The notes under the pieces: model-generated
Databases searched by the model: none
What the model saw: the letters and a program-made list of their open reading frames with translations, nothing else
What the model was told of the DNA's origin: nothing
Part shown: positions 13,250 to 36,121 of the stretch, piece after piece
Layout of the letters: every line of letters starts with the position of its first letter
Numbering within the stretch: the stretch's first letter is position 1
Program-made: the position numbers and the translations under genes
Source: Pseudoprimorskyibacter sp.
Lineage (GTDB): Bacteria; Pseudomonadota; Alphaproteobacteria; Rhodobacterales; Rhodobacteraceae
Assembly (NCBI GenBank): GCA_029251265.1
Contig: JAQXDR010000042.1
Coordinates: forward strand, 1 to 64,000
Direction: 5' to 3'
Length of the DNA stretch: 64,000 nucleotides

Positions 13250-13271
13250 CTGCTATATTCCTGATTGAAAA

Positions 13272-13300
13272 TCACGGCGCTCTTGGTCAAAGCGCCGTGA
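13272..13300 (-). terminator. Intercistronic hairpin after the TctC gene
   Basis: TCACGGCGCT and AGCGCCGTGA form a perfect 10-base stem around a 9-base loop. It lies 8 bases downstream of the binding-protein stop on the minus strand and is followed there by TTTTC. It may partly terminate, or protect, the transcript between transporter and enzyme genes. It cannot be a full stop if the downstream dehydrogenase shares the promoter. Confidence 0.7.
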
Positions 13301-13308
13301 TAATTGTG

Positions 13309-14280: not shown

Positions 14281-14318
14281 AGTATCCTCCCTAGGGTTGA
14301 GCCTGCCGTTATTACGGT

Positions 14319-14783
14319 TCAGAAAAAGATCTCATGCGGTGTGAACACATTCAGCAACTGCGCAAAAAGACCATACATAACCGCCATGAAAGCAGCGGTA
14401 ATCAGCAGCCTTTTGACCCAGCTTTGCGCATGGGTATGCGGGGCCGGATCGTAAAGCGTTAACAGTATAAAAAAGGCAATCGCGGTGGCGGTGTAGAACC
14501 CAAGCGCCTTTGCGGCCCAAAAGACATAAAGACATGTCACCACGAGACCCGGCAGCATATTTCGCAACGCCGAGACGCTGATGCCATTGCCCACTTTGGT
14601 TCGACCCAAAACTGCCTTGGCAAAGGTCCAAATCGCCAAAACAGCAAAAACAGATGATATCAGCCTTGGAAAGATGAACGCGTCTGCGGGCTCTTGTGTG
14701 AAGCTGATGTAGGCGACGCTTGTCCCTATGGCCGCAATCACACCAGAGGCAATGATATGCTGGTTACGTGGTAAATCAGTCAT
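14319..14783 (-). CDS. tctB: TTT transporter small membrane subunit TctB
   Basis: A 154-residue subunit with four predicted membrane helices, including SGVIAAIGTSVAYISF near the start and a long hydrophobic pair at about 80-110. A DPA loop (LYDPAPH) and a final helix (LLITAAFMAVMYGLFAQLL) follow. The start at 14783 is chosen because its ATG overlaps the tctA stop (ATGA); a longer frame to 14906 runs through tctA and encodes unlikely sequence. It is required with TctA and TctC for uptake driven by an ion gradient. Confidence 0.85.
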   Translation of the reverse strand: MTDLPRNQHIIASGVIAAIGTSVAYISFTQEPADAFIFPRLISSVFAVLAIWTFAKAVLGRTKVGNGISVSALRNMLPGLVVTCLYVFWAAKALGFYTATAIAFFILLTLYDPAPHTHAQSWVKRLLITAAFMAVMYGLFAQLLNVFTPHEIFF

Positions 14784-16309
14784 GACAACGCCTCTTCTTT
14801 TGCAATGGCTTCGTCTTTGGTGGTGTAGCGGCGCATCATCACTTCCATCCAGATCGAATAGCCGATGGAGGCGGTGACAATGCAGATCAGCAACCAGTTC
14901 AGCCACCCGGTGAAAAAATATACCCCCACGCCTATCGTGGCCGTCGCAATCATCGACCCTTGAATGAAATTCGCTTCGGCAATCGGTCCAAGGATGAGGC
15001 CCAACACAAGCGGAGCAGCCGAAAATCCAAACCTTTCAAGAAAATACATCGCGATGCCGAGCGTGGCCATGACATAGACGTCGCCCATGGAATGTTGAAC
15101 AGAATAACTACCAAAAAGAGCAAGCCCCAGCACAATAGAGGCCATGACCGCCCGAGGCACCTGCGCCACCCGCGCGGCCAGCCCTGCGATGTACAACCCA
15201 AAAATGCACATCAGAATTTGGCCGATCAGCATAGAGTCGATAAACGTCCACGCCACCTGCGGATAGTTCATGAAAAGATCTGGGCCGGGAAAAATACCGT
15301 GTATCAGAAGCCCGCCCAATAGCACTGCTGCCGTGGGCGATCCGGGAATGGACAGTGTCAAAAGAGGAACCAAAGACGGACCTACCATTGCATTATTGGC
15401 GCTTTCGGCAGCAATCACGCCTTCGCTATGACCTGTGCCGAATTTTTCGCTTTCGCGGCTAAATTTCCGCGACTGGTCATAGGCAACCAGACCTGCGATC
15501 TGACCACCAACCCCCGGAATCAACCCGATGATCGACCCTGTCAGCGTGCCAATGACCAAGGCCGTCTTACGCTTGAATATCTCGATAAATGCGAAGCGGA
15601 TGGGATGTTTTTTGACAGTTATGACCTCGGCAGTATCCTTGGTGCGTCCCTTGGTGAACATCGTGATCACCTGCGGAATTGCAAACAATCCGATCAAGGC
15701 CGGTATTACGTTGATGCCCCCGCTGACCGCGGGATGAAAGATAAACCGCTGCGCGCCCATGATATCGTCAAAGCCGATCGTTGCCAGCCAAAGACCAATG
15801 CAGCCCGACAACAACCCTTTCACAACCGAACTTGAATCCAGTGTCCCAATCACGGTCACGCCCAGGATTGCCAACCAGAACAAATGCGATGGACCAAAAG
15901 CAAGCGCCCATTGCGCCAAGACGGGCGTCAGGAAAATGAGCAGCAGAACGCCAAACACACCCCCAATCGCAGACGCGAGGAACGACACCTGCAAGGCCTT
16001 TGCACCTTCGCCTTTTGTGGCCATCTTATGCCCGTCAAGCGTCGTGGCAATATTCGCAGGCGCCCCGGGTATCTTGAGCAAAATCGCACTCACCGCCCCG
16101 CCTGCCACGGTCGACGTGTAGGCCGCACCCAGCAAGATCAGACCTTGCTGAGGCTCTAGCTGAAACGTGAAAGGTATTAACAAAGCCACGGCCATTGTCG
16201 GCGACAGCCCCGGCGTCGCACCCAAGATCAAACCGCCGACAGTCCCAAGCACCAAAAGCCCGAAATTGACCGGGCTGAACACGTCGCCCATGTAGAACAG
16301 GAACTCCAT
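14780..16309 (-). CDS. tctA: TTT transporter large membrane subunit TctA
   Basis: A 509-residue polytopic membrane protein with about 11-12 helices. It shows the TctA signatures LGATPGLSPTMAVALLIPFT, ILLKIPGAPANIATTLDG, LIPGVGGQIAGLVAYDQ and [16 protein letters not shown]. The ATG at 16309 has a GGGAGGAGA ribosome binding site and gives the family length; an in-frame ATG at 16384 lacks one. It is first in the operon tctA-tctB-tctC-sauS-sauT, transcribed away from the LacI regulator at 16418. It probably imports the acid used by the downstream enzymes. Confidence 0.9.
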   Translation of the reverse strand: MEFLFYMGDVFSPVNFGLLVLGTVGGLILGATPGLSPTMAVALLIPFTFQLEPQQGLILLGAAYTSTVAGGAVSAILLKIPGAPANIATTLDGHKMATKGEGAKALQVSFLASAIGGVFGVLLLIFLTPVLAQWALAFGPSHLFWLAILGVTVIGTLDSSSVVKGLLSGCIGLWLATIGFDDIMGAQRFIFHPAVSGGINVIPALIGLFAIPQVITMFTKGRTKDTAEVITVKKHPIRFAFIEIFKRKTALVIGTLTGSIIGLIPGVGGQIAGLVAYDQSRKFSRESEKFGTGHSEGVIAAESANNAMVGPSLVPLLTLSIPGSPTAAVLLGGLLIHGIFPGPDLFMNYPQVAWTFIDSMLIGQILMCIFGLYIAGLAARVAQVPRAVMASIVLGLALFGSYSVQHSMGDVYVMATLGIAMYFLERFGFSAAPLVLGLILGPIAEANFIQGSMIATATIGVGVYFFTGWLNWLLICIVTASIGYSIWMEVMMRRYTTKDEAIAKEEALS

Positions 16310-16357
16310 CTCGCCCGTCTCCTCCCGAACTAAGGCTTGACCAATTACGCTAGGGGA

Positions 16358-16384
16358 TGAAAATAGTTTTGCAAATGTTTTCAT
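16358..16384. promoter_or_regulatory. Candidate LacI-family operator between tctA and the regulator gene
   Basis: Within the 108-base divergent gap, TTTGCAAA (16369-16376) is a perfect palindrome. It is flanked by ATGAAA at 16358-16363 and TTTCAT at 16379-16384, which pair with each other around a slightly different centre. LacI-family sites usually have a central CG or GC, as here. Position and symmetry suggest the local regulator's site. Confidence 0.35.
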
Positions 16385-16417
16385 AAAATAGTATAAAAAT
16401 GGATCTTAGACGTTGAT

Positions 16418-17443
16418 ATGAAACATAAAAAAGCAGACATTATTGCGGTTGCAAAAGCAGCAAGCGTATCGCCATCAACGGTCTCGCGATATTTCAACCA
16501 CCCTGAATTGTTGAAATTGGCGACCCGCAAAAAAATTGATTCCGCCGTGCGGCGGACTGGCTATATCCGAAATCGGGCAGCGCAAACCATTCATGGCATT
16601 CGCTCCGGAACCATTGGTGTGTTGGTCCCAACACTCGACAATGCGATTTTTGCAGAAGTGGTGCAGGCGTTTTCTGACACGGTTGCCGCCAATGGGTTTA
16701 CCATTTTATTGGCGTCACATGGATATGATCTACAGCGCGAATATAAAATCCTACGCAAATTTTTAGAACACCGCGTTGATGGTGTCGTTCTGACAGGGCT
16801 CGATCATGACGAAGCGGTATTTCAACTTATAGACAGTCAGAATATACCCTGTGTGCTGATCTGGAATTACGCCGCCCGCTCGCGGTATCCAGCCATCGGG
16901 GCCGATAACGAATTAGCTGGCAAGATGATTGCTGATCATATTGCGTCCTTGGGGCATAGAAAGATCGGATGCATGTTTCCCCCAACCCATGGAAACGACC
17001 GCGCACTGGCACGACGCGAGGTGGTAATCGATACATTGCACTCTTATGGAATAAGCATCCCGGAAGAATGGATGTTACAAACGGTGTACAGTATTTCAGC
17101 GTCGAAAAGTGATGCATCAAGGCTGTTTTCGCAGCCTAATCAACCGACTGCACTGATCTGTGGCAACGACGTCTTGGCCACGGGCGCTTTATACGCGGCG
17201 ACCGCTTCGGGGTTAAAAGTGCCAACAGATGTGTCCATCGTCGGCATTGGGGATTTCAAAGGCTCTTCGGAAATCGAACCCGCACTGACCACTGTCAGGC
17301 TTCCTGCAAAACGAATTGGACAACAGGCCGGCGAAGCTCTTGCCAACGCGATCATCACCACCGAAGGTCACACAAAAGACAGCATACACTGCGAGCCGGA
17401 GCTTATAATCAGACGATCCAGCATGCCCATGCGCAACACCTGA
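16418..17443 (+). CDS. LacI-family transcriptional regulator of the TTT/SauST-like operon
   Basis: A 341-residue regulator. The N-terminal helix-turn-helix IIAVAKAASVSPSTVSRYFNHPE (about 8-30) is of LacI type. A hinge helix (TGYIRNRAAQTI) and a periplasmic-binding-protein-like ligand domain follow, with GTIGVLVPTLDNAIFAEV, HRVDGVVLTGL, GHRKIGCM, the effector-loop segment ALICGNDVLATGAL and a C-terminal ALTTVRLPA. It is divergent from tctA with a candidate operator between. Its likely role is repression of the transport/catabolic operon until the substrate or an intermediate binds. The inducer is unknown. Confidence 0.88.
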   Translation: MKHKKADIIAVAKAASVSPSTVSRYFNHPELLKLATRKKIDSAVRRTGYIRNRAAQTIHGIRSGTIGVLVPTLDNAIFAEVVQAFSDTVAANGFTILLASHGYDLQREYKILRKFLEHRVDGVVLTGLDHDEAVFQLIDSQNIPCVLIWNYAARSRYPAIGADNELAGKMIADHIASLGHRKIGCMFPPTHGNDRALARREVVIDTLHSYGISIPEEWMLQTVYSISASKSDASRLFSQPNQPTALICGNDVLATGALYAATASGLKVPTDVSIVGIGDFKGSSEIEPALTTVRLPAKRIGQQAGEALANAIITTEGHTKDSIHCEPELIIRRSSMPMRNT

Positions 17444-17661: not shown

Positions 17662-18678
17662 TCATGCGGGTTGGGCTAAGCTCGTCCAGCTTTTTGACTT
17701 CAACGACTCCAAAATACCCTCAAACGCTGCCAGGCCATTTATAACATCATCCAGCGGAACAGGGTAAACAGACCGAGTTTTTATAGACATCGCAAATGCT
17801 TCCAACTGGGCCCGTTCCATGGACACCTCTGCATGGTGCCAGGTTTGCGGCGTCCCAACAACAGGGGTCCATGTCAGATCGTTTTCTCCACGCAGCTCAA
17901 GCCACCCTTTTTCGCCAAACACCTGTAATCGAAAATTCCGCGCGGTTGCGGTCATGGTGGCCAAGGTTCCGGTGGCGTCGTTTTCAAAACGAAACATCAT
18001 CGTCGTCACGTCATCATGATCTATCTGATGGACCAACCGATTACTGATTGCAATCACGGACCCAATAGGGCCCAAGAGATGGATCATGAGATCAATCACA
18101 TGAATTCCGGCTGCTGCCAGACCACCTGCGGGGCTTTCACCCGGTGCAACGCGCCAGATTTCCGGTGTGTAGACTTCGCCAAAGCCCACATGACTGCTCA
18201 TATTGCCCTCGACATGCAGAATGCGACCCAGATCCCCTGAACGGATCATGCTTTTCATCCGCGCAACCGCCGGTAAAAACCGACGATTGTGCCCCGGCGC
18301 AAAGATGACATCCGCACGCCGGACGGCATCCACTGCCGTTTTTGCACCCCGATGTGTGAGGGCAATGGGCTTTTCGCAAAACACGTCTTTTCCTGCCGCA
18401 GCAACTTGCACGATCTGACGTTCATGTTGCGAATGCGGTGTGGCAAGGACAATGCCGTCCACCTCTGGATCCTTCAGGACAGACGCCAGATCGTCACTTA
18501 GAAAAATATCGTTTTCTCTGCTCCAACACAGGGCCTTATCAGGCGATCTTGCCACCGCATGCGTAAACATCACACGTTCAGACAGTCCCTGCACTGACGC
18601 AACCAGAATGCGGCCCCACCGTCCCGGACCGACCAGAGCCAGTCGCGCCACATCCCCGTCATGCGGTATCTTACGCAT
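17662..18678 (-). CDS. Gfo/Idh/MocA-family NAD(P)-dependent oxidoreductase
   Basis: A 338-residue dehydrogenase. The Rossmann start ARLALVGPGRWGRILV has the family's G.G.WG pattern, ATPHSQHE follows strand 4, and the conserved E-K-P motif appears in VFCEKPIALT. The C-terminal half includes GGLAAAGIHVIDLMIHLLG with the expected D/H pair. The start at 18678 is preferred because the longer frame (to 18726) runs far into the DUF3830 gene; this start overlaps that gene by 8 bases. It is the last gene of the nine-gene operon that begins near 27747. The substrate is not predictable; a cyclic polyol, imine or keto acid derivative would fit the family. Confidence 0.82.
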   Translation of the reverse strand: MRKIPHDGDVARLALVGPGRWGRILVASVQGLSERVMFTHAVARSPDKALCWSRENDIFLSDDLASVLKDPEVDGIVLATPHSQHERQIVQVAAAGKDVFCEKPIALTHRGAKTAVDAVRRADVIFAPGHNRRFLPAVARMKSMIRSGDLGRILHVEGNMSSHVGFGEVYTPEIWRVAPGESPAGGLAAAGIHVIDLMIHLLGPIGSVIAISNRLVHQIDHDDVTTMMFRFENDATGTLATMTATARNFRLQVFGEKGWLELRGENDLTWTPVVGTPQTWHHAEVSMERAQLEAFAMSIKTRSVYPVPLDDVINGLAAFEGILESLKSKSWTSLAQPA

Positions 18679-19084
18679 AGTTGAAAGAGATATCTTTTGC
18701 GCCTTCCCATAGAACCAGATTGCCAAGGGTCATCAAATTCTCCAGTCCTGAGGTCAACGTAATAAAGTGGTTTCCTGCCAACTGACCCATTTTTGACGAA
18801 AAATCGACGCCGCCGTAAGCAAGCAAAATCTCGGTCTCGCTGATCCCGCCTGGATACAGGATAATCTGTCCCGGCGCCGGATGACTTGTGTGATTTTCAT
18901 ATCCAACGCCAAAATCATGGTCACCAAGTGGGATCCACACGCCCTCTCCCGACCAGCGCACGTGAACAATTTTTCCGCCATAGGGCATTGCTGATTCAAA
19001 AGCGGCACAGGTTTGCGGGGCAGCGTCGCGTTCCAATTTCGCATCAAAACTGAACGGCCCAGCGGTTATTTTTAGTGCACTCAT
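18671..19084 (-). CDS. DUF3830 family protein
   Basis: A 137-residue cytoplasmic protein that reads as a DUF3830 member, a cyclophilin-like beta-barrel family of unknown role. Landmarks are AAPQTCAAFESAMPYGGKIVHVRWSGE (about 20-46, here split by family-typical Pro and Gly), YPGGISETEILLAYGG near residue 85 and GNHFIT. DUF3830 genes are often found beside amino-acid and hydantoin-type catabolic genes, in my memory of such clusters. Here the gene follows the fused FAD dehydrogenase by 18 bases with an AAGGAGAAG ribosome binding site, so it is co-expressed and may act on the same compound. No catalytic residues can be named. Confidence 0.7.
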   Translation of the reverse strand: MSALKITAGPFSFDAKLERDAAPQTCAAFESAMPYGGKIVHVRWSGEGVWIPLGDHDFGVGYENHTSHPAPGQIILYPGGISETEILLAYGGVDFSSKMGQLAGNHFITLTSGLENLMTLGNLVLWEGAKDISFNYA

Positions 19085-19102
19085 GTGTCTTCTCCTTATG
19101 AT

Positions 19103-21958
19103 TTACTGAAAACGGGCCATTGAAAAAGCCTCTAGGTCCTGTCGCATTCGACCATGTAACGCGAAAGCGGCGGCTTCGCGTCCCATCAGCGGCCCAAGCG
19201 TGAATCCATTGGCAGTGGCCGCAACCGATACCCCGTCATACCCCGGCACCGGCCCAATCAAAGGCGCCCCATCGATGTCGATATTCATGGCCGCCCAACT
19301 GCGGATCATATGCAGACTGCCTACCAGTGGTACCGTATGGGCGGCGACCCATAAACTGCCCTCAAGACTATCGGGCAAAACATCTGCATATCCGCTTGGC
19401 CCAGTTGTTGCGGGCCATGCACCCCCGATGATGATTGATCCCGAAGCCGCCTGTTTCATTGTCAAATGGCGTCCTGCATGTGCCAAAAGGCATGGAACGA
19501 GCGGAGGGGCTGGCGCAGTAACAACCATTTGAAGGGGGGCACCTCGGATCGGCAAATCAGTACCTAGCATCCGCGCGATCTGGGTGCTCCAACCGCCGGC
19601 AGCTATCAACACGCGCCGCGCGGAAATGGCGCCACGCGCTGTGTTGAGCAGATACCCCTGATCTTCGCGGGCAATAGCCGACACGGGTGCAAATTCCTCA
19701 ATAATGGCACCACTGGCCCGCGCTGCTCGTGCCAGCGCCGGTGTTGCAGTCAGGGGATTGATCTTTCCCTCTCCGGGACACCACGCGGCGCCAATAATGT
19801 TATCAGATATATTCGGGATGATTGATTTTACACGCGCTGCATCTATCACCTCGGACTGGATACCAACCCGTTCTTCGGCGCGCACTTTGTCCTCCAGAAA
19901 TGGTAAATGCTCAGGGGTTTCCGCAACCATCAGCCCCCCTGTGACTTGCATCTCAAAATTCGCACCAATCTCTTTTTCCAGTTCACGCCAGAGACCTATT
20001 GCCTCTTTTTGAAGTGGCAGCGTGCGCAGTTGCAAACTGCCATCACCGACAGCCTTGCCCCCGAAATCCCATGACAACAATTGCAGGTGAAGACTGCCCG
20101 CATTGCCACCCGAGGCCTCTGCGTTCACACGCCCGCGATCGAGGCATACAACCGATGCCCCTGCCCGTGCAGCATAAAGGGCTGCCGAAATACCCGTGAC
20201 GCCACCGCCAACAATCACCAAGTCCGCCGCTGACACGCCAAGCGGTTCGGACACGGGACGATCCGGCCGTTGACTGGGCGCACTGGCGCGATGACCGCCC
20301 CATTCCGCTTTTTCCGATCCGATCGCCCCGATAGATACGGGTCGTGCAGGAATCTGCGGCGCGAACAGGGCGTCTGCCGAACAGGTATGTCCGGCATCCC
20401 TGAACACTTTAATCGCTTGCGGTAGGCAATATCGTCCCTGACACCGCCCCATACCAATCCGCGTTTCACGTTTCAACGTGGCCGGATCACGCGCGCCATT
20501 GTCAATCGTCTTGCGGGCCGTCGCAACACGGATCCCCTCGCAGCGACACAACACAGTATTGCTCTGCGGCGCGGCCCGTTCTGGCGCGTCATATATGCGC
20601 CATAGTGCTTTTTGAAAGCGCTGCGCACGTTGAAGTCGCCGTCGCGCATCAGACCGCATAACGCCCGGTTCTTTTCCCAAAAATTTCAAGGTGCCTCGCG
20701 CACTGAGCGTACCTTGACAAGCGGCAATTTCTGCGCCCCCCAGCCCACCGGCATCACCCGCAATCCATACTCCCTCAACAGGGGTGCGCCCATCCGGATC
20801 CCGCTTGGGCGACATCGCATTCGTCTCTGGATGCTGCTCAATCGGGACCCCCAAAAGCCGCGCAATCTCCAGTTGCGGGGCAAAGCCGTCGCCCGCAATA
20901 ACAAAATCAACCTCAAACTGTTTGGTCTCGCCGGTGCGCAGATTTTCAACGATAGCCCCCTGCACGCCGGTTTGTCCCGTTACAGCCGACAGTTGCCACC
21001 CGGACAGGATCTGGGTCTGTGACCGCTTTGTCGTCAACCAGTAACCCGCCCCATCCACCAACAACCGCGGCGCAGTTATAGCGGCTTGCATCAAAGATCC
21101 ACCCAGACGCGGGCGCCCCCGTTCCGCGAGGGCAACAACATGGCCGCCCAAACGGTTCAACTCGGCGGCCAGTTGCAGTCCAAGCGGTCCATGACCGGCA
21201 ATCAAAAGACGCCCCTTCGGAGCGACACCATAGCGGCGGGCATATGTTTGCGCAGCCCCGATGGTCATGACACCCGGCAGCGTCCATCCCGGCACCATGG
21301 CCGGGCGTTCGAACGCTCCGGTTGCAATGATAACAGCCCGAGCCCTGATTTTCAGGCTTTGATCCGATCCGAGACTGCGCAGATCAAACCCTGCTGCGTC
21401 CTGTCGCGCAAACCACACCGTTTGACCTGTAAATATCCTTGCGTCAGAGTTCAAAGCCGCATTCCGCAGATCAGTGCCGTTTCTGTGTTGTCTGTCGGCA
21501 GCAGAATGGCCGCGATATCCTGAGCTTCTGGGTTTGAAATACTGGCCACCTGTCTCAGAGCGTTCGTCAAGCACAATAACGCTTGCGCCGGCACGGGCCG
21601 CGTTGATAGCCGCGGTTAATCCTGCAGGACCGGCGCCTATGACAACGATCTCGGCCTGACAGGTCTTTTCTGCCGTCCGCTGTGTCAAAACAGTATCTGC
21701 TGCCAGCAGGCTGTCGCTCTCGGATTGGACCGTCATTGCCTCACGAACGGAGACCATGCACGCGCGCTGACCACGCTGACCGTCCACCGTGACAAGGCAA
21801 TCATGGCAGACACCCATTCCACAGAATGCCGCACGATTATGACCGTTTCGTCGCTGGCCGAGTATCGTTTCACCACACGCAGCCAAGGCCGCAGCGATGC
21901 TATCACCCGGCGCGGCCGCGACGTCTTGGCCATCAAAGGTAAAGACGATTTTCCCCAT
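19103..21958 (-). CDS. Fused [2Fe-2S]/FAD/FAD amino-acid-type dehydrogenase (HcnABC/opine-oxidase-like, one chain)
   Basis: A 951-residue protein joining three normally separate subunits. Residues 1-80 form a plant-type [2Fe-2S] domain with C46, C51, C54 and C67 (HcnA-like). Residues about 100-460 form a pyridine-nucleotide-disulphide-type FAD domain with GAGPAGLTAA at 108-117 (HcnB-like). Next comes a BFD-like [2Fe-2S] site with C470, C472, C505 and C510. From about 577 a DAO-type FAD domain with GGGVTGISAALYAARAG (HcnC/LhpB-like) ends in AATANGFTLGP. Such complexes oxidise amines: hydrogen cyanide synthase from glycine, opine oxidase, and D-hydroxyproline dehydrogenase of Pseudomonas. The fusion probably channels electrons from substrate FAD through FeS to the second flavin. 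It abuts the DapA-family gene with no gap. Confidence 0.85.
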   Translation of the reverse strand: MGKIVFTFDGQDVAAAPGDSIAAALAACGETILGQRRNGHNRAAFCGMGVCHDCLVTVDGQRGQRACMVSVREAMTVQSESDSLLAADTVLTQRTAEKTCQAEIVVIGAGPAGLTAAINAARAGASVIVLDERSETGGQYFKPRSSGYRGHSAADRQHRNGTDLRNAALNSDARIFTGQTVWFARQDAAGFDLRSLGSDQSLKIRARAVIIATGAFERPAMVPGWTLPGVMTIGAAQTYARRYGVAPKGRLLIAGHGPLGLQLAAELNRLGGHVVALAERGRPRLGGSLMQAAITAPRLLVDGAGYWLTTKRSQTQILSGWQLSAVTGQTGVQGAIVENLRTGETKQFEVDFVIAGDGFAPQLEIARLLGVPIEQHPETNAMSPKRDPDGRTPVEGVWIAGDAGGLGGAEIAACQGTLSARGTLKFLGKEPGVMRSDARRRLQRAQRFQKALWRIYDAPERAAPQSNTVLCRCEGIRVATARKTIDNGARDPATLKRETRIGMGRCQGRYCLPQAIKVFRDAGHTCSADALFAPQIPARPVSIGAIGSEKAEWGGHRASAPSQRPDRPVSEPLGVSAADLVIVGGGVTGISAALYAARAGASVVCLDRGRVNAEASGGNAGSLHLQLLSWDFGGKAVGDGSLQLRTLPLQKEAIGLWRELEKEIGANFEMQVTGGLMVAETPEHLPFLEDKVRAEERVGIQSEVIDAARVKSIIPNISDNIIGAAWCPGEGKINPLTATPALARAARASGAIIEEFAPVSAIAREDQGYLLNTARGAISARRVLIAAGGWSTQIARMLGTDLPIRGAPLQMVVTAPAPPLVPCLLAHAGRHLTMKQAASGSIIIGGAWPATTGPSGYADVLPDSLEGSLWVAAHTVPLVGSLHMIRSWAAMNIDIDGAPLIGPVPGYDGVSVAATANGFTLGPLMGREAAAFALHGRMRQDLEAFSMARFQ

Positions 21959-22855
21959 TCAGGCGTCAGTGTCGGGAAGCAGGCCAACGCTGGCCAGTGC
22001 TTGGGTGACATCTCTCATTTCACTGTCTGGCAGGGGCAGACGCGGCGCACGCGGGGGACCCATAGGTTGATCGATTAACGCGAGGGCTGCCTTGCTGCCC
22101 GACACGTATCGATGACCAGCCACCAAGCGGATGATGGGCAGGACCTCCCGATAGAGCGCGCGCGCGGCGTCGTAGTCCTTGTCATCAGCCGTCAGATTGA
22201 AGAGTTTGGCCAAGGCGGCTGGCAAGATGTTGGAGCCCACGGCAACCCAGCCTTCCGCACCCTCGACAAAGCTTTCAAACCCCATGATGCCCCCAAAAAC
22301 AGTCATCCGCCCGTCGCACATATCAAGGATGTCCCGGATGCGCGTGACGTCCATGGTAGATTCCTTGATATAGTCAACGTTTGGCAAGCGCGACAGTTCC
22401 GCCACCAAAGGCGGGGTCAAATCCACATTCGCGGTGGCTGGATTGTTATAGATCATAATGGGCCGCGTCGCGGCGTCGCCTATGCATCGGAAATGATGAA
22501 TCAACTCGTCCCAGGTTGGTGTTGAGTAAAAGGGGGGAATGATCATTGTTCCATCAGCGCCAAGCTCTTCTGCCATAGCGACATTATCAATCACATCCTG
22601 CGTCCATTCAGCCCCTGCACCGACCAAAACGGGCACCCGTCCGGCGACCGTATCAATCACACATTTTGCAACGGCTTTGCGTTCCTCTGGGGTTAATGAC
22701 AAAAACTCTCCAGTGGATCCAAGGGGGATAAGTCCATGAATTCCCTCTCGGACCTGCCAGTCGGTAAAGCGCGCCTGCGCCTCAAGGTCCAACCGCCCGG
22801 CACTATCAAAGGCGGTGACCATTACGGTAAAAGTGCCACGAAACGGTTTTGTCAT
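21959..22855 (-). CDS. DapA-family (DHDPS/NAL superfamily) Schiff-base lyase or deaminase
   Basis: A 298-residue TIM-barrel enzyme of the dihydrodipicolinate synthase superfamily. It has the substrate-carboxylate loop LGSTGEFLSL, the Tyr motif IMIYNNP and the Schiff-base lysine in YIKESTMD. These enzymes form or break C-C bonds of 2-oxo acids or remove water or ammonia from them. It stands between an amine dehydrogenase gene and a phosphotriesterase-family gene, not beside lysine genes. A catabolic role is therefore likely, for example a deaminase like the pyrroline-4-hydroxy-2-carboxylate deaminase of hydroxyproline pathways, or an aldolase. The start overlaps the upstream stop (ATGA), and the gene ends directly at the next start. 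Confidence 0.82.
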   Translation of the reverse strand: MTKPFRGTFTVMVTAFDSAGRLDLEAQARFTDWQVREGIHGLIPLGSTGEFLSLTPEERKAVAKCVIDTVAGRVPVLVGAGAEWTQDVIDNVAMAEELGADGTMIIPPFYSTPTWDELIHHFRCIGDAATRPIMIYNNPATANVDLTPPLVAELSRLPNVDYIKESTMDVTRIRDILDMCDGRMTVFGGIMGFESFVEGAEGWVAVGSNILPAALAKLFNLTADDKDYDAARALYREVLPIIRLVAGHRYVSGSKAALALIDQPMGPPRAPRLPLPDSEMRDVTQALASVGLLPDTDA

Positions 22856-23877
22856 ACTGGGGTCTCCTTGAGGCTCAAAAGCCGCAGTGGCGTGTCGCGC
22901 AAAAGATTTGATATGAGGCCGGGCTCAAATCCAAACCGGTGCATCAGGGGGACAACATTGCGCAGAATATGGCCATACCCATGGCCGCCCCAATGGTGCA
23001 GTCGTGTTTTGGTGCATATGTCTTGTGAGACAAGAATCTGATCTTCATACCCGGCCTGTGCAAAATCCGCGATTAGCCACAATCGATCGCGGTCGATGGG
23101 CAAATCCACCTCGCCCATCCAGTAATGCGATTGTTCTATACCAAAAAAATCCCATTCCACATTTGCACCGCGTGCAAGCAGCGGCTGGATGCCGCTCCCG
23201 TCGGGATGGGTGCGGTCCATATGACACAAAACCACCCTTTGAAGATCAAGACCCTCGCCTTCGACAATATCAAGGATGTCTTCGCAAGCATGGGGCGCCC
23301 GTCCGGGATGTACAGACAACGCAGCACCCGTTTCACAAGCGGCCCGCGCCGCCGCACGAAGAGCCCGGCATTCAAATGGTGCCATAGGCCAAGAGCATCC
23401 CATTTCCCCGATAAGACCAGCCCTGACAGAGGTGCCGTCCAGCCCCTGCGTCACCTCGGCTTTGAAGCGTGCCGTCAAATCATCAATATCCAGTCGGATC
23501 AAAGCGGAGGATAGATAAGGACGCGTATAGGTCCCCGCAGCAGCAACGAGGTGCGTGCCGGACGCCTTGGCCACATGGGCCAATCCGTTGGCATCTCTTG
23601 CAAGCCCTGCAACTGACTGATCGACAATCAAACCGCCGCCGTCAGCTGAAAACCTACGCAATTCCTGGGCTGCGATGTCCACATCCTGCTGATGGGCGTT
23701 CGCCACCGTATCATTTGACCGATAGTCAATTTGCCAACGCTCTGTCACGGGCATGGCCGCATCGCGATCTTCGCATGATCCCGGTGGAACAATATCGAAC
23801 AAAACATGTTCATGAAACATCACCGGCCCGATGTCTTCAGCAGGGATATCCCCCAAAACTGTTCGCACAAACGCCAT
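22852..23877 (-). CDS. Phosphotriesterase-family metal-dependent hydrolase
   Basis: A 341-residue amidohydrolase-superfamily TIM barrel of the phosphotriesterase (PTE) type. The predicted dinuclear metal ligands are all visible: H22 and H24 in FHEHVL, a bridging Glu E158 in GLIGEMG (in place of the carboxylated Lys of true PTE), H190 in LSVHPG, H219 in VLCHMDRT and D286 in VSQDICT. Enzymes with this Glu variant are often lactonases or other small-ester/amide hydrolases rather than organophosphatases. Its place in the operon suggests that it opens a lactone or amide formed from the imported compound. The start lies 2 bases from the ABC ATPase stop. Confidence 0.8.
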   Translation of the reverse strand: MAFVRTVLGDIPAEDIGPVMFHEHVLFDIVPPGSCEDRDAAMPVTERWQIDYRSNDTVANAHQQDVDIAAQELRRFSADGGGLIVDQSVAGLARDANGLAHVAKASGTHLVAAAGTYTRPYLSSALIRLDIDDLTARFKAEVTQGLDGTSVRAGLIGEMGCSWPMAPFECRALRAAARAACETGAALSVHPGRAPHACEDILDIVEGEGLDLQRVVLCHMDRTHPDGSGIQPLLARGANVEWDFFGIEQSHYWMGEVDLPIDRDRLWLIADFAQAGYEDQILVSQDICTKTRLHHWGGHGYGHILRNVVPLMHRFGFEPGLISNLLRDTPLRLLSLKETPV

Positions 23878-23879
23878 CG

Positions 23880-24710
23880 CTAATGATGCAGGATTTTCGA
23901 CAGGAACAAAGTCGTATGCTCGCTCTCTGGATTGGTAAAGAATTTCTCTGGTGGGGCTTCTTCAACGACCTGCCCATCATGCATCAGGATGACCCGATCC
24001 GCCGCCGCGCGCGCAAATCCCATCTCGTGGGTTACCACGATCATCGTCATCCCCTGCGTGGATAAATCCACCATAACATCCAGAACCTCTGATATCATTT
24101 CGGGATCCAGCGCCGAGGTTGGCTCGTCAAACAACATGACCTGAGGCTTCATGGCCAAGGCGCGGGCAATTGCAACGCGCTGCTGTTGCCCCCCGGAAAG
24201 CTGTCGGGGATAGGCGTTTTCCTTGTCCGGCAGACCAACCCGACGCAACAGGGCACGTGCCTCTTCGCGCACCTCTGCGACATTCCTTTTCAGGATACGG
24301 ACCGGAGCCATGGTGATGTTTTCGATCACGCTGACATGCGGGAACAAATTGAAATTCTGAAACACCATGCCAAGGTCGCGCTGCTGCTTTGCGATTTGAG
24401 AATCGCGTAAGGCGACGCGCTTGCCATTTGCCTCTCGGAACCCCATCAGATGGCCTGCCGCACGGATGGTTCCTCCGTCAATGCTTTCCAGTTGATCAAT
24501 GCAACGCAAAAGCGTGCTTTTGCCACTGCCCGACCGTCCACAGATCACAACCACCTCGCCTTTGCGAACCGACAAGGACACGTCCTTTAAAACATGGTTG
24601 TCTCCAAAGGATTTTTGCACATTTTCAATCATTACGATGGGATCACCAAGGGTGCGCGTGTCCGACGGGCGTGGGGGCAATTCCTGGTCTTGTTCGACTG
24701 TCATGCTCAT
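23880..24710 (-). CDS. Amino-acid ABC transporter ATP-binding protein (PAAT family)
   Basis: A 276-residue ATPase of the polar amino acid uptake type (GlnQ/HisP-like). It shows Walker [14 protein letters not shown], the Q loop [11 protein letters not shown], the signature [16 protein letters not shown], Walker [15 protein letters not shown] and the H switch VVTHEMGFA. It powers import with the permease and binding protein encoded upstream. Its start overlaps the permease stop (ATGA). An N-terminal extension of about 30 residues precedes the core. Confidence 0.92.
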
Positions 24711-25450
24711 GCCTCCTTGACCGGCTTGGATTTTCGAAACGCCGCACGACGGGCTTTTTTTGCATCGAAAGAAACAGCTTCGTCCGGGCCAAAGGGCTTT
24801 TCATATCGTGCCTCGATGCGCACCTGGATCACGCTCCAGATCGAGACGAGGATCAGGTACCAAAGTGCTGCGCAGGTATAGGCCTCGAGCACGCGAAATT
24901 GTGTTTGCGCCAGCATTTGTGCCATGCGCATCAGCTCTTCCATCGAGATAACCGACGCCAGAGATGTCGTCTTGAGCATCCCGTTAAACTGATTACCCAA
25001 AGGAGGAATGATCGTCCGCGTTGCTTGGGGCAGAATAACCAGCCACATTCTTTGTCGCCATGTCATACCGACGGCCCGCGAGGCATCGGTCTGTCCTTTG
25101 TCGACAGACATTATCCCCGATCGAATGATCTCGGCCAAATAGGCACCTTCGTTCAATGCAAGGCCCAGTATCGCCGATTCAATCACGGTCAGACGAATGC
25201 CCAGTTGCGGCAAACCCGTATAGATAATCACCAGCTGGATAAGAACCGGTGTGCCCCGAAACAGCCAAATGTAGAATTCAGCCGTCCATCTGAGCGTTCT
25301 GTTGCCGTACATCTTCATCATGGCTGCCAAAACGCCAAGACCAAGGCCGAGAGCCATGGAAATGACGCTGAGCCAAACAGTCGTCCACGCCCCTTGCAGC
25401 ATGAGACCGTTGGTCACATAGCTAAAGAATATCTCCCAACTCCAGTTCAC
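24707..25450 (-). CDS. Amino-acid ABC transporter permease (PAAT family)
   Basis: A 247-residue permease of the HisMQ/GlnP type with five or six helices. It has the cytoplasmic EAA loop around [20 protein letters not shown], which docks the ATPase. Only one permease gene is present, so the channel is probably a homodimer. The C-terminus carries a basic tail of about 30 residues beyond the last helix. The gap of 107 bases to the upstream binding-protein gene holds a strong hairpin, which may lower expression of the permease and later genes relative to the binding protein. Confidence 0.9.
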
Positions 25451-25521
25451 AGGCGTCTCCGCTATCAGTTGTTACAACACCGATCGCCCTTGGGGCGCTT
25501 TATGCATATTTTAGACAAAGG

Positions 25522-25545
25522 TCCGGCCCCTTGGCAGGGGCCGGA
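25522..25545 (-). terminator. Intercistronic hairpin after the ABC binding-protein gene
   Basis: TCCGGCCCC and GGGGCCGGA form a perfect 9-base, very GC-rich stem around TTGGCA, 12 bases past the binding-protein stop on the minus strand. No long U run follows. It is more likely an mRNA-protecting or partial-termination element, as commonly found after binding-protein genes, than a full terminator. Confidence 0.75.
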
Positions 25546-25557
25546 GATGTTTAGACG

Positions 25558-26406
25558 TTATTCAGGTGTGTAGTAGACAGCAATATCACCAGTGTAGTCA
25601 TCCCAGAACTGGATCTGGGTCGCGCCGTAGGCTGACATCATTTCGTTGTAGGTGCCATCCGCAACCATATCACGCAAAACATCCGCCACAGCATGTGCAA
25701 GATCCCCACCGGTCACACCGTCAAACCCGAAAGACGATGGCAATCCAGGGTTCAGACCTGATGCCCCAACATCAAACGGGCCCTGATCAGCAAGATAGGC
25801 CGCGGTTGCGTCCGAGCCGAACACCGCGCGCACCTGACCGGCACCAAGGGCCGCAAAGGCATCACCAAATGTGTTGAAGGCCTGAATGTCCATGGACTCC
25901 ATACCCTGAGCGACCTGCGCCTCGTTAATTTCCCGCATCAACGCATCCGCAAAACCAGAAATCTCTGTACCAACGGGCTGGCCTGCCAATTGCGCGTAGC
26001 CCGTGATGTCATGCGGATTGCCATCCTGAACAACGATGGCCAGTGCATTCACCACATAAGGAACCATCTGCATGATCTTGGCACGGTCGGGTTTGTAGTA
26101 AAGCCCGGTGTTGATCATATCCCAACGTTTGCTGGCCAGTCCTGGGATCTGAACCTCAAAAGGAACGTTGGTGTATACAGGCTCAAGGCAAAGTCGCTTT
26201 GCAATTTCATCGCCAAGATCAGGATGCAAACCCATCAATTTGCCCGATACATCAATATATTGGCGGGGCGGAAGCGTCGCATTGATCGACATAGTCAGTT
26301 TACCAGGCTCGACCGTTGTCAGGTTGTCCGGGCAATCTTGTGCGAGGGCACTGCTTGCCAACAGGCCCAAGCCAATCGCGACGGAACTCAGTGAAAAATA
26401 CTTCAT
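25558..26406 (-). CDS. Periplasmic amino-acid-type solute-binding protein (ABC family 3)
   Basis: A 282-residue SBP with a signal peptide (MKYFSLSSVAIGLGLLASSALA-Q). The mature part shows the family-3 features DVSGKLMGLHPDLGDEIAKRL, RWDMINTGLYYKPDRAKIM and GTEISGFADALM. It captures a small, probably amino-acid-like or amine solute in the periplasm and delivers it to the single permease/ATPase. An AAGGAAAAG ribosome binding site precedes the ATG. It is the second gene of the operon after the M20 homologue. The family binds mostly amino acids and their derivatives; the exact ligand is unknown. Confidence 0.88.
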   Translation of the reverse strand: MKYFSLSSVAIGLGLLASSALAQDCPDNLTTVEPGKLTMSINATLPPRQYIDVSGKLMGLHPDLGDEIAKRLCLEPVYTNVPFEVQIPGLASKRWDMINTGLYYKPDRAKIMQMVPYVVNALAIVVQDGNPHDITGYAQLAGQPVGTEISGFADALMREINEAQVAQGMESMDIQAFNTFGDAFAALGAGQVRAVFGSDATAAYLADQGPFDVGASGLNPGLPSSFGFDGVTGGDLAHAVADVLRDMVADGTYNEMMSAYGATQIQFWDDYTGDIAVYYTPE

Positions 26407-26445
26407 ACTCTTTTCCTTTCCCTTGGTTACGTAATGTCTTCCGCG

Positions 26446-27747
26446 TTAGTGCGGGGGTGATTGAGGTGACTTTTGTGCCTGTTTTCCAGAGCACCAGTTG
26501 ACGACTATTTCTGCCGTGACATCCACCATGCACTGAAAGTCGGCCACATCGACCCATTCATCGTTCCGACCATTCTGCGTCAGATCTCCGCCAAGACACC
26601 CAAGGCCGACACAGGGGATATTCGCCTCGACAATGGGGTTGCGGATATCAGAGGACGTGTGCATCGGGTTGACCTGAGGCAGACCGCCTGTGATGTCGGC
26701 CACAACGCGCGCCGCCGTGGCGTATAGCGGGTGGTGCGGCGGCACCTCTCCACCGGTGACCCCGGTCACCCACGTGATTTTCGGCGGATGGTCCTTGAGC
26801 CACGGGTCTTTTGTTGTCGCATTCCGAACCGCGTCAGAAATTTCTGCTTTCACATTATCCAGCGTTTCGCCAGGTGGAAATGACACCGCACAGCCAAGTG
26901 TACATCGATCCTGGATTCTGGACAGACGCTGCATGTCACCGGACTGGATGTGTGACACATGTATGTTGGTAGCCCGCCCAACAATAGATTCAATCAACGG
27001 GTGGCGCACACGGGCTGCACGATCTTCGGCCAATTGCATCAATGCCGACCGGACCAGCAACGCCTTGTCGATCGGGTTATCGGACAAATGGGAAAAGGCA
27101 GTGTGACCGGGCTCTGTTGTGTCGGGCTGGCGACCCGACACCTCGATAAGAAACTCTATATGACCGGAGGCCGTGGCTTTTATCTCGCGCATGCCAATAC
27201 CGGATTCTGCGGGATGCAAATAAAGCGCAGCATCCGCGCGCAACCCATCGTGTAACAGCGCTGCAACACCCCGCGCATACCGTTTTGAAGGTGTCGATGC
27301 AAAAACCACTCGTCCCATCGGGATATTCGCAGCCGCCGCCCGTTCAATGGCAAGCACAGCGGCGGCGCATCCGGCAAGGTCATCCGCAACACCCCATCCG
27401 TAAAGGCGCCCGTTTTCTATTTCTGCCCCAAAAGGATCGTGATGCCACCGGCTGACATCACTTTGCGCCTCACCATCAGGATGAGCAAACATTAAAAGGC
27501 TGGGCAGGGATGGATCCCCCGCGAGACTGCCCACAACTGCGGTTCGTTCACCGACAGCACGCGCGGCATCCAGAGCAAATTCCCCCACCACTGTTACGTC
27601 AGCTGGATCGTAGCGGTGCACATCAACCATGCAGCCAGCCGCCAAAAGCCGTTGCTGGATCACGTCTTGAACAGCGGATTCGCCATGCGCCTGCGCAAAA
27701 ACAAGCTGTCGCAATAGATCTAGTGCTGCGTTTTCGATGTTCCCCAA
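26446..27747 (-). CDS. M20-family peptidase homologue with a degraded metal site
   Basis: A 433-residue protein with the M20 (ArgE/DapE/CPG2) fold. H89-P-D91 in MFAHPDGE and D122 in YGWGVADDLAG match the first metal ligand, catalytic Asp and bridging Asp. The place of the catalytic Glu-Glu pair reads FASTPSKRYARG (about 149-160), so both Glu are missing. The next ligand (E-P-T in the family) is LHPAES with H178, and the last His before the E-Y/W-V motif is Asn (QNGRNDEWV). It may use another metal set, act on a different bond, or be non-catalytic. The start is TTG at 27747, since a stop lies just upstream. It is first in the nine-gene operon, and GTATAC operators lie 10-33 bases before the start. 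Confidence 0.75.
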   Translation of the reverse strand: MGNIENAALDLLRQLVFAQAHGESAVQDVIQQRLLAAGCMVDVHRYDPADVTVVGEFALDAARAVGERTAVVGSLAGDPSLPSLLMFAHPDGEAQSDVSRWHHDPFGAEIENGRLYGWGVADDLAGCAAAVLAIERAAAANIPMGRVVFASTPSKRYARGVAALLHDGLRADAALYLHPAESGIGMREIKATASGHIEFLIEVSGRQPDTTEPGHTAFSHLSDNPIDKALLVRSALMQLAEDRAARVRHPLIESIVGRATNIHVSHIQSGDMQRLSRIQDRCTLGCAVSFPPGETLDNVKAEISDAVRNATTKDPWLKDHPPKITWVTGVTGGEVPPHHPLYATAARVVADITGGLPQVNPMHTSSDIRNPIVEANIPCVGLGCLGGDLTQNGRNDEWVDVADFQCMVDVTAEIVVNWCSGKQAQKSPQSPPH

Positions 27748-27756: not shown

Positions 27757-27780
27757 TTTTGGTATACAGACGGTATACCG
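27757..27780. promoter_or_regulatory. Tandem GTATAC operators for an FCD-type GntR regulator
   Basis: TTTTGGTATAC (27757-27767) and CGGTATACCG (27771-27780, a perfect palindrome) stand side by side in the gap between the divergent M20 and GntR genes. GntR proteins of the FCD (FadR) branch typically bind TGGTATACCA-like sites. The pair lies only 10-33 bases ahead of the M20 start codon, so a bound regulator would block leftward transcription. Confidence 0.6.
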
Positions 27781-27949: not shown

Positions 27950-28624
27950 GTGACGACGACCCACGCAAGCCCTCTGGATGATCAAACCGATTCGCTTGGC
28001 GGACCTACGACCCTGTCCCAAAAGGCCTACGTAGCGCTGTACCGTCTGATACAGGAACGGGCTTTGCCTGTTGGTCGCCCGATTGTGGAGGCCAAACTGG
28101 CCGAACAACTTGGTGTATCACGCACACCTCTGCGTCAGGCGCTACAACGGCTTGAAAGCGAAGGGTTGCTAAAAAAGCTGGAAAGTAGATCCTATGTGGT
28201 GCGCCGTGTCGAGCTACGCGAGTATCTTCAAAGCTTGAAAGCCCGCGAAATCCTAGAGGCAGAGGCCGCCGAGTTGGCAATAGGCCGTATAGACGCCGCG
28301 CATCTGGCGCAGGCACGTCATTCCTTGCGCGACGTCCAGAACCAAAGCCCGTACGATATGCTTGAGCATTGGAGATCTGACGACAAAGTCCACAACCTCT
28401 ATATCCGCGCCTGTGGCAATTTGGTCATTCAGGATATTTTATTTTCCTTGCGCACAACCACGAAGCTGTTCGAAATCGAACGGCTGTCCGAGCGGCTGAA
28501 ACCAGATAGCAGACAGCATGAAGAGATTTTGGATGCTATTGAAAAAAGGGACGCGGCAGAGGTGCGTGCCGCTGTGCAAAGTCATCTCAGGTCCCTTGCA
28601 GAATTTGCCATTTCTGTCCTGTAG
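27950..28624 (+). CDS. GntR-family (FCD-type) regulator of the adjacent catabolic operon
   Basis: A 224-residue regulator. The winged helix-turn-helix (about 20-85) contains PIVEAKLAEQLGVSRTPLRQALQRLESEGLL, split by family-typical positions. The C-terminal all-helical FCD domain shows the metal/ligand residues in D.H pairs (RSDDKVHNLYI) and a late QHEEI.DAI motif. The start is GTG at 27950 with a GAGAGGGAGA ribosome binding site about 7 bases upstream. It diverges from the nine-gene operon ending at 17662, with tandem GTATAC sites between. It is very likely that operon's repressor, released by the substrate or a carboxylated intermediate. Confidence 0.88.
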   Translation: MTTTHASPLDDQTDSLGGPTTLSQKAYVALYRLIQERALPVGRPIVEAKLAEQLGVSRTPLRQALQRLESEGLLKKLESRSYVVRRVELREYLQSLKAREILEAEAAELAIGRIDAAHLAQARHSLRDVQNQSPYDMLEHWRSDDKVHNLYIRACGNLVIQDILFSLRTTTKLFEIERLSERLKPDSRQHEEILDAIEKRDAAEVRAAVQSHLRSLAEFAISVL

Positions 28625-28816: not shown

Positions 28817-30331
28817 TTAGGTTAACAAATCCGCCGAAAGCAAAGTGTCGCTAAAGTTTTGGAAACAGACCGGACGCAAAAACCGGCGTATCGACAGCGT
28901 GCCGACCGAGGTTGCCCCAAAATTTGTCGACGCAGGATATGGCCCACCGTGCACCATGCTGTCTGCTACCTCGACACCTGTTGGATATCCATTGGCCAAA
29001 AGACGGCCAGCTTTTCTCTCTAATATCGGTAAAAGCGCAAGAGCATCGGCTTCGTCTGATTGATCCAAGTGCAGCGTGACGGTCAACTGTCCGAGCAGCG
29101 ACTGTGCAATATCACGCATTTCGGACATGTCTTTGGCGATGACAATCAGCCCCAAAGGCCCAAAGACCTCTTCTCCCAGATCCGCATTTTGCAACCATGT
29201 CTTGGCAGTCGTTTGATACAAATAGGGCGTTGCAACCCGACCATCACAGGTCGTGCTGACCAGAGCGTCAACGTCCTCAGATCCTGCGACCAGTTGCTGT
29301 CCCCGGCGGAAGGCCTCTGCAATTCCATCCGTCAGCATGACCTGCGATGGTGTCTTCGCCAGCGCCTCCGTTGCAGCCTCGATGAAGGGGGCAGAAATAT
29401 CTTCCAGCACAACCGCGATACCGGGGTTGGTACAGAACTGGCCCGCCCCCATCGTCAGTGACGCAGCCCAGCCCGTGCCAATATCAGTACCGCGCGCTTT
29501 CGTTGCCTCGGGCAGCAAGAACATCGGATTGACCGAGCCCAATTCGCCAAAGAATGGAATGGGCTCAGGACGCGCCGCACATAAATCATACAGCGCCCGT
29601 CCCCCAGCCAAAGATCCGGTAAATCCGACGGCTTTGATAAGCGGGTGCTGAACCAATCTTGTGCCAACGGCCCGGTCGCCCCCTTGTATCAGTGAAAATA
29701 CGCCAGGATGGACATCGCATTTTTGTATGGCTGCGAGAATAGCTTCAGCGATAATCTCGCCTGTGCCGGGGTGCGCTGAATGTCCTTTGACAACGACAGG
29801 ACACCCCGCCGCCATAGCCGCGGCTGTATCGCCACCGGCCGTAGAGAACGCCAGTGGGAAGTTGGATGCACCAAATACGGCAACAGGTCCAATAGGACGC
29901 TGGATCATTTTAAGATCAGGGCGCGGCAAAGGTTTACGGTCAATCAGCACGGGATCATGGCGTAGATCCAGATACTTACCTTGCAGAAGATGCTCGGCGA
30001 AAAGCCGTAACTGCCCAGTTGTCCGGCCACGTTCGCCTTGCAGACGGGCTTCTGGCAAACCGGTTTCCTGACATCCGATCTCGGTTATCGCATCACCCCG
30101 GGCCTCGATCTCGTCAGCGATCGCATGCAAGAAGGCCGCGCGATGATCCCGGCTGGAATATCCAAAAGACCAAAATGCGTCTTCGGCCGCTTCGACAGCC
30201 TTATCAACATTTTCAACAGAGCCTACCGAATATGAATGTGCCGGACCATGGGCTGGCGAGGACATGAAGCTTTGTGTCCCGGGGGTCCAATGACCCGCTA
30301 TCAAATGGTTTCCAGTCGGTTGAAATGTCAT
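28817..30331 (-). CDS. Alpha-ketoglutarate semialdehyde dehydrogenase-like enzyme
   Basis: A 504-residue aldehyde dehydrogenase of the KGSADH type, which oxidises 2,5-dioxopentanoate to alpha-ketoglutarate with NAD(P). The catalytic pair is visible: E263 in FFGELGSVNP and C300 in MGAGQFCTNPG. The glycine loop is GFTGSLAGGRALYDL, and FGASNFPLAFSTAGGDTAAAMAAG is the KGSADH-typical variant of the nucleotide-side region. It is the last gene of the eight-gene operon, overlapping the PdxA homologue by ATGA. With the keto-deoxypentonate dehydratase homologue upstream it completes a non-phosphorylative (Weimberg-type) route. It could also serve a hydroxyproline-type pathway from the neighbouring operon. 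Confidence 0.82.
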   Translation of the reverse strand: MTFQPTGNHLIAGHWTPGTQSFMSSPAHGPAHSYSVGSVENVDKAVEAAEDAFWSFGYSSRDHRAAFLHAIADEIEARGDAITEIGCQETGLPEARLQGERGRTTGQLRLFAEHLLQGKYLDLRHDPVLIDRKPLPRPDLKMIQRPIGPVAVFGASNFPLAFSTAGGDTAAAMAAGCPVVVKGHSAHPGTGEIIAEAILAAIQKCDVHPGVFSLIQGGDRAVGTRLVQHPLIKAVGFTGSLAGGRALYDLCAARPEPIPFFGELGSVNPMFLLPEATKARGTDIGTGWAASLTMGAGQFCTNPGIAVVLEDISAPFIEAATEALAKTPSQVMLTDGIAEAFRRGQQLVAGSEDVDALVSTTCDGRVATPYLYQTTAKTWLQNADLGEEVFGPLGLIVIAKDMSEMRDIAQSLLGQLTVTLHLDQSDEADALALLPILERKAGRLLANGYPTGVEVADSMVHGGPYPASTNFGATSVGTLSIRRFLRPVCFQNFSDTLLSADLLT

Positions 30332-36078: not shown

Positions 36079-36094
36079 GATCTACCTAAGTGTG

Positions 36095-36121
36095 TGCGGA
36101 GCCACCATTTGCAGCTCCGCA
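36095..36121 (-). terminator. Intercistronic hairpin after the second TctC gene
   Basis: TGCGGAGC (36095-36102) and GCTCCGCA (36114-36121) form an 8-base stem with an 11-base loop, 12 bases after the tctC stop on the minus strand and just ahead of tctB. There is no U tract. It probably raises binding-protein mRNA over the membrane subunits, like the hairpins after the other two binding-protein genes. Confidence 0.65.

Follow-up and report, generated by a model that had tools for sequence, protein, structure and literature searches.

Which compound is taken up and degraded by the predicted nine-gene operon that lies on the minus strand of a 64,000-nucleotide stretch of Pseudoprimorskyibacter sp. 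(assembly GCA_029251265.1, contig JAQXDR010000042.1; hereafter, the window)? The nine open reading frames (ORFs) encode an M20-like protein, the solute-binding protein (SBP), permease and ATPase of an ATP-binding cassette (ABC) importer, a phosphotriesterase-family protein (hereafter, PTE), a DapA-type protein, a fused dehydrogenase, a DUF3830 protein and a Gfo/Idh oxidoreductase. An earlier note on this DNA had matched the set to no known complete pathway, and we likewise found no assigned operon of such make-up in the open PubMed Central (PMC) literature. The cassette is an orphan catabolic one, and it is well conserved.

We suggest, tentatively and with a confidence just short of even, that the operon serves for uptake and breakdown of an amide-masked amino acid, most likely a cyclic ureide or imide of the hydantoin or dihydropyrimidine type, or a ureido or N-acyl amino acid derived from one. 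The scheme that we infer would begin with uptake of the compound by the ABC importer and hydrolysis of a C-N amide bond by the PTE, acting in place of the dihydropyrimidinase of homologous cassettes and usually partnered by the degenerate M20-fold protein. Hydrolysis would release a secondary amine or a D-amino acid, from which the fused dehydrogenase would form an imine or a 2-oxo acid by oxidation; the DapA-type enzyme would split or deaminate the oxidized product via a Schiff base, and DUF3830 would carry out C-N chemistry on an intermediate, all under the control of a GntR regulator. The lactone- or amide-bearing cyclic amine guessed at in the earlier note thus survives, as a guess, in its amide-bearing form; nothing was found for a lactone. 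This reading would tie three poorly understood proteins (a PTER relative in a catabolic operon, an M20 fold with a rebuilt site, and DUF3830) to one testable chemical theme.

The PTE-type cassette and its hydrolase

A contig scan with the PTE protein returned nine loci (L008–L016), hosted by Jannaschia, Maritimibacter, Marinibacterium, an uncultured Granulosicoccus and metagenome-assembled genomes. Compared across these genomes, the order M20-like, SBP, permease, ATPase, PTE, DapA, fused dehydrogenase, DUF3830 is the same in 9/9 loci (L008 starts inside its M20-like gene), and because it recurs in all of them, this eight-gene order exceeds chance. The ninth gene is another matter: Gfo/Idh is present at only three of 12 PTE-type loci, namely the window and two Jannaschia loci (L010 and L013), with L009 and L012 ending soon after DUF3830, and is therefore an accessory gene. 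The nine-gene operon of the earlier note accordingly stands as eight core genes in fixed order plus one accessory gene. Within the window's family, a PTE match at E 1e-60 occurs in seven of 295 genomes, the window's own included, and four of the seven have an identity of 57% or more. One further locus (L017, PTE 57%) keeps the M20-like, PTE, DapA, dehydrogenase and DUF3830 genes and lacks a window-type importer.

The nearest solved structure to the PTE by sequence is a phosphotriesterase-related protein, 9efa (E 4e-64). The metal ligands of mouse PTER are H26, H28, E169, H201, H230 and D298 (PMC13311154, in extract); with mouse positions placed by counting and spacing along 9efa rather than by aligning the mouse sequence, all six are kept in 13/13 PTE rows. 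An Arg occupies the place of PTER Arg233 in 13/13 rows and that of Arg204 in 11/13 (Asn in L009 and L012). The PTE differs from PTER in its setting, a catabolic operon, and in having Cys at the place of the substrate residue His300 in every row. PTER hydrolyzes N-acetyltaurine and N-acetyl-beta-alanine (PMC11374699, PMC13311154, both in extract), and by family and residues the PTE is a predicted PTER-like enzyme of amidase type.

These likenesses raise the possibility that the operon is served by a plain bacterial PTER, for use of N-acetyltaurine, N-acetyl-beta-alanine or some other N-acyl amino acid, with no ring compound involved. The match to 9efa and the two Arg counterparts speak for this explanation, and a nearby gene passes the model for acylating sulfoacetaldehyde dehydrogenase; set against the invariant Cys at the His300 place and against sister cassettes of dihydropyrimidinase type (below), we regard it as very improbable.

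The M20-like protein has clearly the M20 domain (PF01546, 55.9 bits, cut-off 24.6), as the earlier note had it, but it has lost the catalytic residues. Aligned to 3pfo and 7rsf, it has Ser-Lys for Glu-Glu and His for a metal-binding Glu, and the last His is missing. The Ser-Lys and His are held in 12/12 M20-like rows (the first part is missing from L008), the C-terminal metal His is absent from 12/12 at the position defined by aligning the window's protein to 7rsf, and three control M20 proteins keep Glu-Glu. The orthologues are 45–74% identical to the window's protein. On these residues, standard M20 catalysis is not to be expected of the protein, and we see no sign of a decaying gene. At E 1e-35 it was found only in the window genome and one other (G671) among 398 sampled genomes of the phylum, in both beside PTE, and it accompanies PTE in 12 of 13 PTE loci, being absent from L018.

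Dihydropyrimidinase in related cassettes

Eight related cassettes (on A. vitis pAt, Azospirillum p4 and Aureimonas pAU20b, in R. lusitanum, in two Variovorax, and in genomes G659 and G344) carry a dihydropyrimidinase gene (HydA) in place of PTE and the M20-like gene, in a gene order unlike that of the window. All eight share with the window a DapA-type protein (57–63% identity), a fused dehydrogenase (42–45%) and a GntR homologue (36–50%), and seven share a homologous importer (SBP 40–42%, permease 51–56%, ATPase 52–55%), the eighth (L066, in G344) having TRAP-type genes instead. DUF3830 (61–80%) is present in four. Two HydA proteins were tested against the D-hydantoinase model and both pass it (522 and 554 bits, cut-off 393), and dihydropyrimidinase-family motifs are intact in 11/11 aligned HydA sequences. 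Within the stretches examined, PTE and the M20-like gene are absent from 8/8 HydA cassettes with a fused dehydrogenase, and nearby HydA is absent from 11/12 PTE cassettes; the window has no dihydropyrimidinase gene. The added hydrolase of the earlier note is borne out, and can be refined to a PTER-like amidase type that alternates with dihydropyrimidinase, with one locus carrying both.

That HydA occupies the place of PTE in soil-bacterial relatives suggests a ureide-type amide, cyclic or open-chain, as substrate. Moreover, since the importer is homologous in seven of the eight HydA-type cassettes and the GntR regulator in all eight, the compound imported by the two types of cassette is probably alike. 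No characterization of the HydA-type cassettes was found in the open PMC literature.

Trees of the DapA-type protein and of the dehydrogenase both place L067, which has PTE and the M20-like gene, inside the HydA clade. The PTE/HydA label needs two changes, and none of 200 bootstrap trees reduces this to one; on both trees, then, there were two or more changes of hydrolase. A looser, third case of exchange may be L018, which has PTE, three separate dehydrogenase subunits and an importer, and no M20, DapA or DUF3830 within 20 kb: its dehydrogenase subunits are 51–58% identical to those of a Paraburkholderia plasmid cassette that also encodes HydA, DUF3830 and a DapA-family protein, the last only 25% identical to its counterpart in the window. 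If the exchange is real, one cyclic-amide step would be performed by two distant families, and a ureide-type nutrient would be common to marine and plant-associated bacteria.

Several observations weigh against the cyclic ureide or imide reading. L012 has a PTE cassette and also a HydA gene beside its GntR gene, and this HydA clusters with the HydA proteins of the L065, L026, L021 and L037 cassettes (support 98/98; 87/86 without L065). The exchange is therefore not strict, and a strict mutual exclusion of the two hydrolases is rejected. Given the gaps in L018 and the lack of DUF3830 from four of the eight HydA-type cassettes (L031, L039, L064 and L066, in the stretch examined), neither M20, DapA nor DUF3830 is indispensable. 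Dihydropyrimidinase-like genes occur elsewhere in 6/6 searched genomes with PTE (in the window genome, G000, at 41% and 39%), so the HydA step could come in trans. Finally, we know of no activity for any member of the cassette.

Some of the same facts would fit two successive hydrolyses, in which a HydA in, beside or away from the cassette opens the ring and the PTE then removes the N-carbamoyl group, with the M20-like protein either left over from the usual M20 carbamoylase or acting as a partner to it. PTER removes N-acetyl groups (PMC11374699, PMC13311154, in extract), which N-carbamoyl groups closely resemble in shape; ring opening and decarbamoylation by the PTE are therefore both chemically reasonable, and the sequence does not decide between them. 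The co-occurrence in L012 and the two further HydA-like genes of the window genome lend substance to this scheme; against it stand the lack of PTE and M20 from all eight HydA cassettes, the lack of nearby HydA from 11 of the 12 PTE cassettes, and a best HydA relative of only 38% in G671. We judge it unlikely, though a serious contender.

DUF3830, the dehydrogenase and the DapA-type protein

The DUF3830 protein (PF12903, 114.6 bits, gathering cut-off 26) was modeled, with middling confidence, as a cyclophilin-like barrel (mean pLDDT 74, ten close sequences), and we found no paper on the family in the open PMC literature. The model matches 3kop (Z 17.0), KslB (Z 16.7) and McbB (Z 15.5) ahead of true cyclophilins (Z about 12). 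KslB and McbB are Pictet-Spenglerases, and one KslB domain superposes on the model with a root-mean-square deviation of 2.1 over 129 aligned residues. The identity is 15%, DUF3830 is a single domain in a ureide context, and a common fold shows no function. Six residues (Arg43, Ser45, Glu63, Glu85, Asn105 and His106) are invariant in 19 DUF3830 sequences from bacteria and haloarchaea.

The neighborhoods of DUF3830 add a chemical context. Around 12 plasmid loci, chosen for variety rather than at random from 38 matching records, a cyclic-amide or ureide gene lies nearby in 11, with L023 the exception; the genes concerned are HydA, allantoinase, ring-opening amidohydrolase, hydantoinase A/B, AllE and Zn-dependent hydrolase. 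DUF3830 was found in 19 of 299 genomes, and of the 17 neighborhoods covered (G345 and G413 being left out), 11 have a recognizable ureide or amide hydrolase nearby and six have none (L068, L075, L077 and L079–L081), with labels assigned by BLAST against a small reference set of our own and a few Pfam scans, many ORFs unlabeled and no random-locus control. In seven of the 19 genomes, all of one family (f8), DUF3830 lies about 1 kb from an OHCU decarboxylase. From fold and neighborhood, DUF3830 probably acts on an intermediate by C-N chemistry of the imine, aminal or ureido kind.

A bolder proposal joins these threads: that a PTE-family enzyme took over the opening of a cyclic ureide or imide ring from dihydropyrimidinase, together with an M20 fold of rebuilt site (Ser-Lys for Glu-Glu, His for Glu), and that DUF3830 is a new family of ureide-catabolism enzymes in bacteria and haloarchaea, with a minimal Pictet-Spenglerase-like cyclophilin fold, C-N bond chemistry and Arg43, Glu63, Glu85 and His106 as its catalytic set. 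Taken jointly, we consider this distinctly doubtful.

Two other ideas about DUF3830 were set aside. As a replacement for the ureidoglycolate lyase AllA it does not fit, because 12 of 19 DUF3830 genomes also have AllA, and a genome-level link to urate is uninformative, OHCU decarboxylase being present in 19/19 genomes with DUF3830 but also in 16/20 without it. In L069 (4746–10172), DUF3830 looks like part of a urate operon: a PuuE-like gene and a fusion of OHCU decarboxylase with HIUase adjoin it, and a molybdenum protein resembling xanthine dehydrogenase is encoded alongside. Paracoccus pantotrophus has a tandem pair of DUF3830 genes (L028, 7504–8423).

The DapA-type protein shares with DHDPS, the DapA enzyme itself, the Schiff-base Lys and the Tyr, but has Thr at the substrate Arg after YNxP, and it falls below the TIGR00674 cut-off. 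Its motifs (GSTGE and YNNPATAN) differ from those (GSMGD and YNSPYYG) of L084, an unannotated stretch of S. meliloti pSymB that we take to be a hydroxyproline locus. Relatives of the DapA-type protein (51–61%) are encoded alongside CoA-transferase, acyl-CoA dehydrogenase and MaoC in L033 (3540–12760), L034 (3174–10694) and L065 (4833–11839), and in L034 a tautomerase-like small protein, just under cut-off, is also near; these loci may represent another use of the same lyase.

The dehydrogenase, a chain of 951 residues in the order gamma-alpha-beta, is of the Lhp/opine/sarcosine type; the earlier note had called it Lhp-type. Both kinds of 2Fe-2S motif, two nucleotide-binding (GxGxxG) motifs and Arg-X-Trp are present in 20/20 fused rows, as they are in D-hydroxyproline and opine dehydrogenases (PMC4575208, in extract). 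Those enzymes are assembled from separate subunits (alpha4 beta4 gamma4) and have an alpha motif published as C-X-C-X15-20-C-X4-C, whereas the window's is one fused chain and the corresponding spacing is X31-33 in all 20 fused rows. Because the family accepts a range of amines, opines and prolines among them, the dehydrogenase leaves the substrate unfixed.

The earlier note had linked the operon to D-hydroxyproline use. In that case PTE and M20 might free D-hydroxyproline, perhaps from an N-acylated form, the dehydrogenase would yield the pyrroline, the DapA-type protein would deaminate it, and an aldehyde dehydrogenase (ALDH) encoded at 28817–30331 would finish the pathway. The known bacterial trans-4-hydroxyproline pathway also pairs a DAAO-superfamily dehydrogenase with a DHDPS-superfamily protein (PMC4113996, in extract), the dehydrogenase motifs are common to D-hydroxyproline dehydrogenase, and the ALDH, a candidate for the alpha-ketoglutarate semialdehyde dehydrogenase of that pathway though below NCBIfam cut-offs, is 69% identical to one in L084. 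This ALDH lies outside the operon, however, in a separate gene set on the far side of the GntR gene; the window operon has an added hydrolase, an M20-like protein and DUF3830; its DapA motifs are unlike those of L084; and the homologous cassettes have dihydropyrimidinase. The proline racemase family (PF05544, hydroxyproline 2-epimerase), present somewhere in six of nine genomes searched, gave no match in the window genome, which is 99.47% complete, bearing out the lack of an epimerase stated earlier. Because no epimerase-family gene was found, ordinary hydroxyproline use is unlikely. Use of D-hydroxyproline or its N-acylated form is in our view improbable, and the DapA motifs and the missing epimerase leave the earlier link unsupported.

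Operon layout and neighboring genes

All nine ORFs lie at the coordinates given earlier (Table 1), and each of their proteins, like that of the divergent GntR gene, has a Pfam domain above cut-off. The genes are packed as had been described, with 4-bp overlaps between permease and ATPase and between PTE and DapA, a further overlap between DUF3830 and Gfo/Idh, and gaps of 39 bp (M20/SBP), 107 bp (SBP/permease), 2 bp (ATPase/PTE), 0 bp (DapA/dehydrogenase) and 18 bp (dehydrogenase/DUF3830). The Gfo/Idh gene perhaps starts at an ATG at 18678 rather than the TTG at 18726.

Table 1. Features of the operon and its upstream region, with positions in the window
Feature	Position	Strand	Basis or remark
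GntR/FCD regulator, divergent	27950..28624	+	Pfam FCD and GntR above cut-off
GntR operator-like palindrome GTATAC-N5-GTATAC, GGTATACAGACGGTATACC	27761..27779		just before first operon gene
M20-fold protein without canonical catalytic residues	26446..27747	-	Pfam M20 55.9 bits; residues
Family 3 SBP	25558..26406	-	Pfam
GC-rich hairpin between SBP and permease genes	25522..25545	-	folding
Amino-acid-type ABC permease	24707..25450	-	Pfam
ABC ATPase	23880..24710	-	Pfam
PTER-like phosphotriesterase-family amidohydrolase (PTE), predicted	22852..23877	-	Pfam, solved-structure match, residues
DapA-superfamily lyase/aldolase	21959..22855	-	Pfam, motifs
Fused gamma-alpha-beta (2Fe-2S, FAD, FAD) dehydrogenase	19103..21958	-	Pfam, motifs
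DUF3830 protein, cyclophilin-like fold (modeled)	18671..19084	-	Pfam, structure model, conserved residues
Gfo/Idh/MocA oxidoreductase, accessory gene	17662..18726	-	Pfam; in 3/12 PTE-type loci

The set had been placed under one GntR operator, and a divergent GntR gene and an operator-like site were both found. Conservation of the putative operator across nine upstream regions is partial: the two GTATAC halves stand 5 bp apart in four (the window, L009, L010 and L013), L012 and L016 have the site with one mismatch, the halves are far apart in L014, and L011 and L015 have a single half. GntR homologues of 36–74% identity are present in 18 loci of both cassette types, and weaker ones (26–27%) in L017 and L025.

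Operons that make their binding protein in excess usually have a hairpin after its gene. In the window the gap between SBP and permease genes folds with a z of -4.2 (25470–25560). In the same gap of 12 other loci, folded with no shuffle controls, strong GC-rich stems recur in L008, L010, L011, L013–L016 and L022, and weaker or less GC-rich ones in L009, L012, L021 and L026. The importer was considered as EhuABC, for ectoine and hydroxyectoine uptake, and rejected on NCBIfam cut-offs (EhuA 288.7 against 345.4, EhuC 151.5 against 196.95, EhuB 58.5 against 190.9); relatives of the SBP in the PDB single out no one ligand.

Two other gene sets flank the operon. The set at 10359–17443 has a regulator of LacI type, transport genes that resemble TctC/TctA (a label given by eye), a gene that passes the model for SauS, the acylating sulfoacetaldehyde dehydrogenase (669.5 bits, cut-off 600), and another that resembles acyl-CoA ligases at scores below cut-offs; it perhaps serves sulfoacetate use with a tripartite transporter. 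At 28817–37162, a TctC/B/A-like transporter (by eye) is encoded with enolase-superfamily dehydratase-like, DapA-like, GntR-like and PdxA-like genes and the ALDH, those scanned being below NCBIfam cut-offs, and this is perhaps a set for sugar-acid breakdown.

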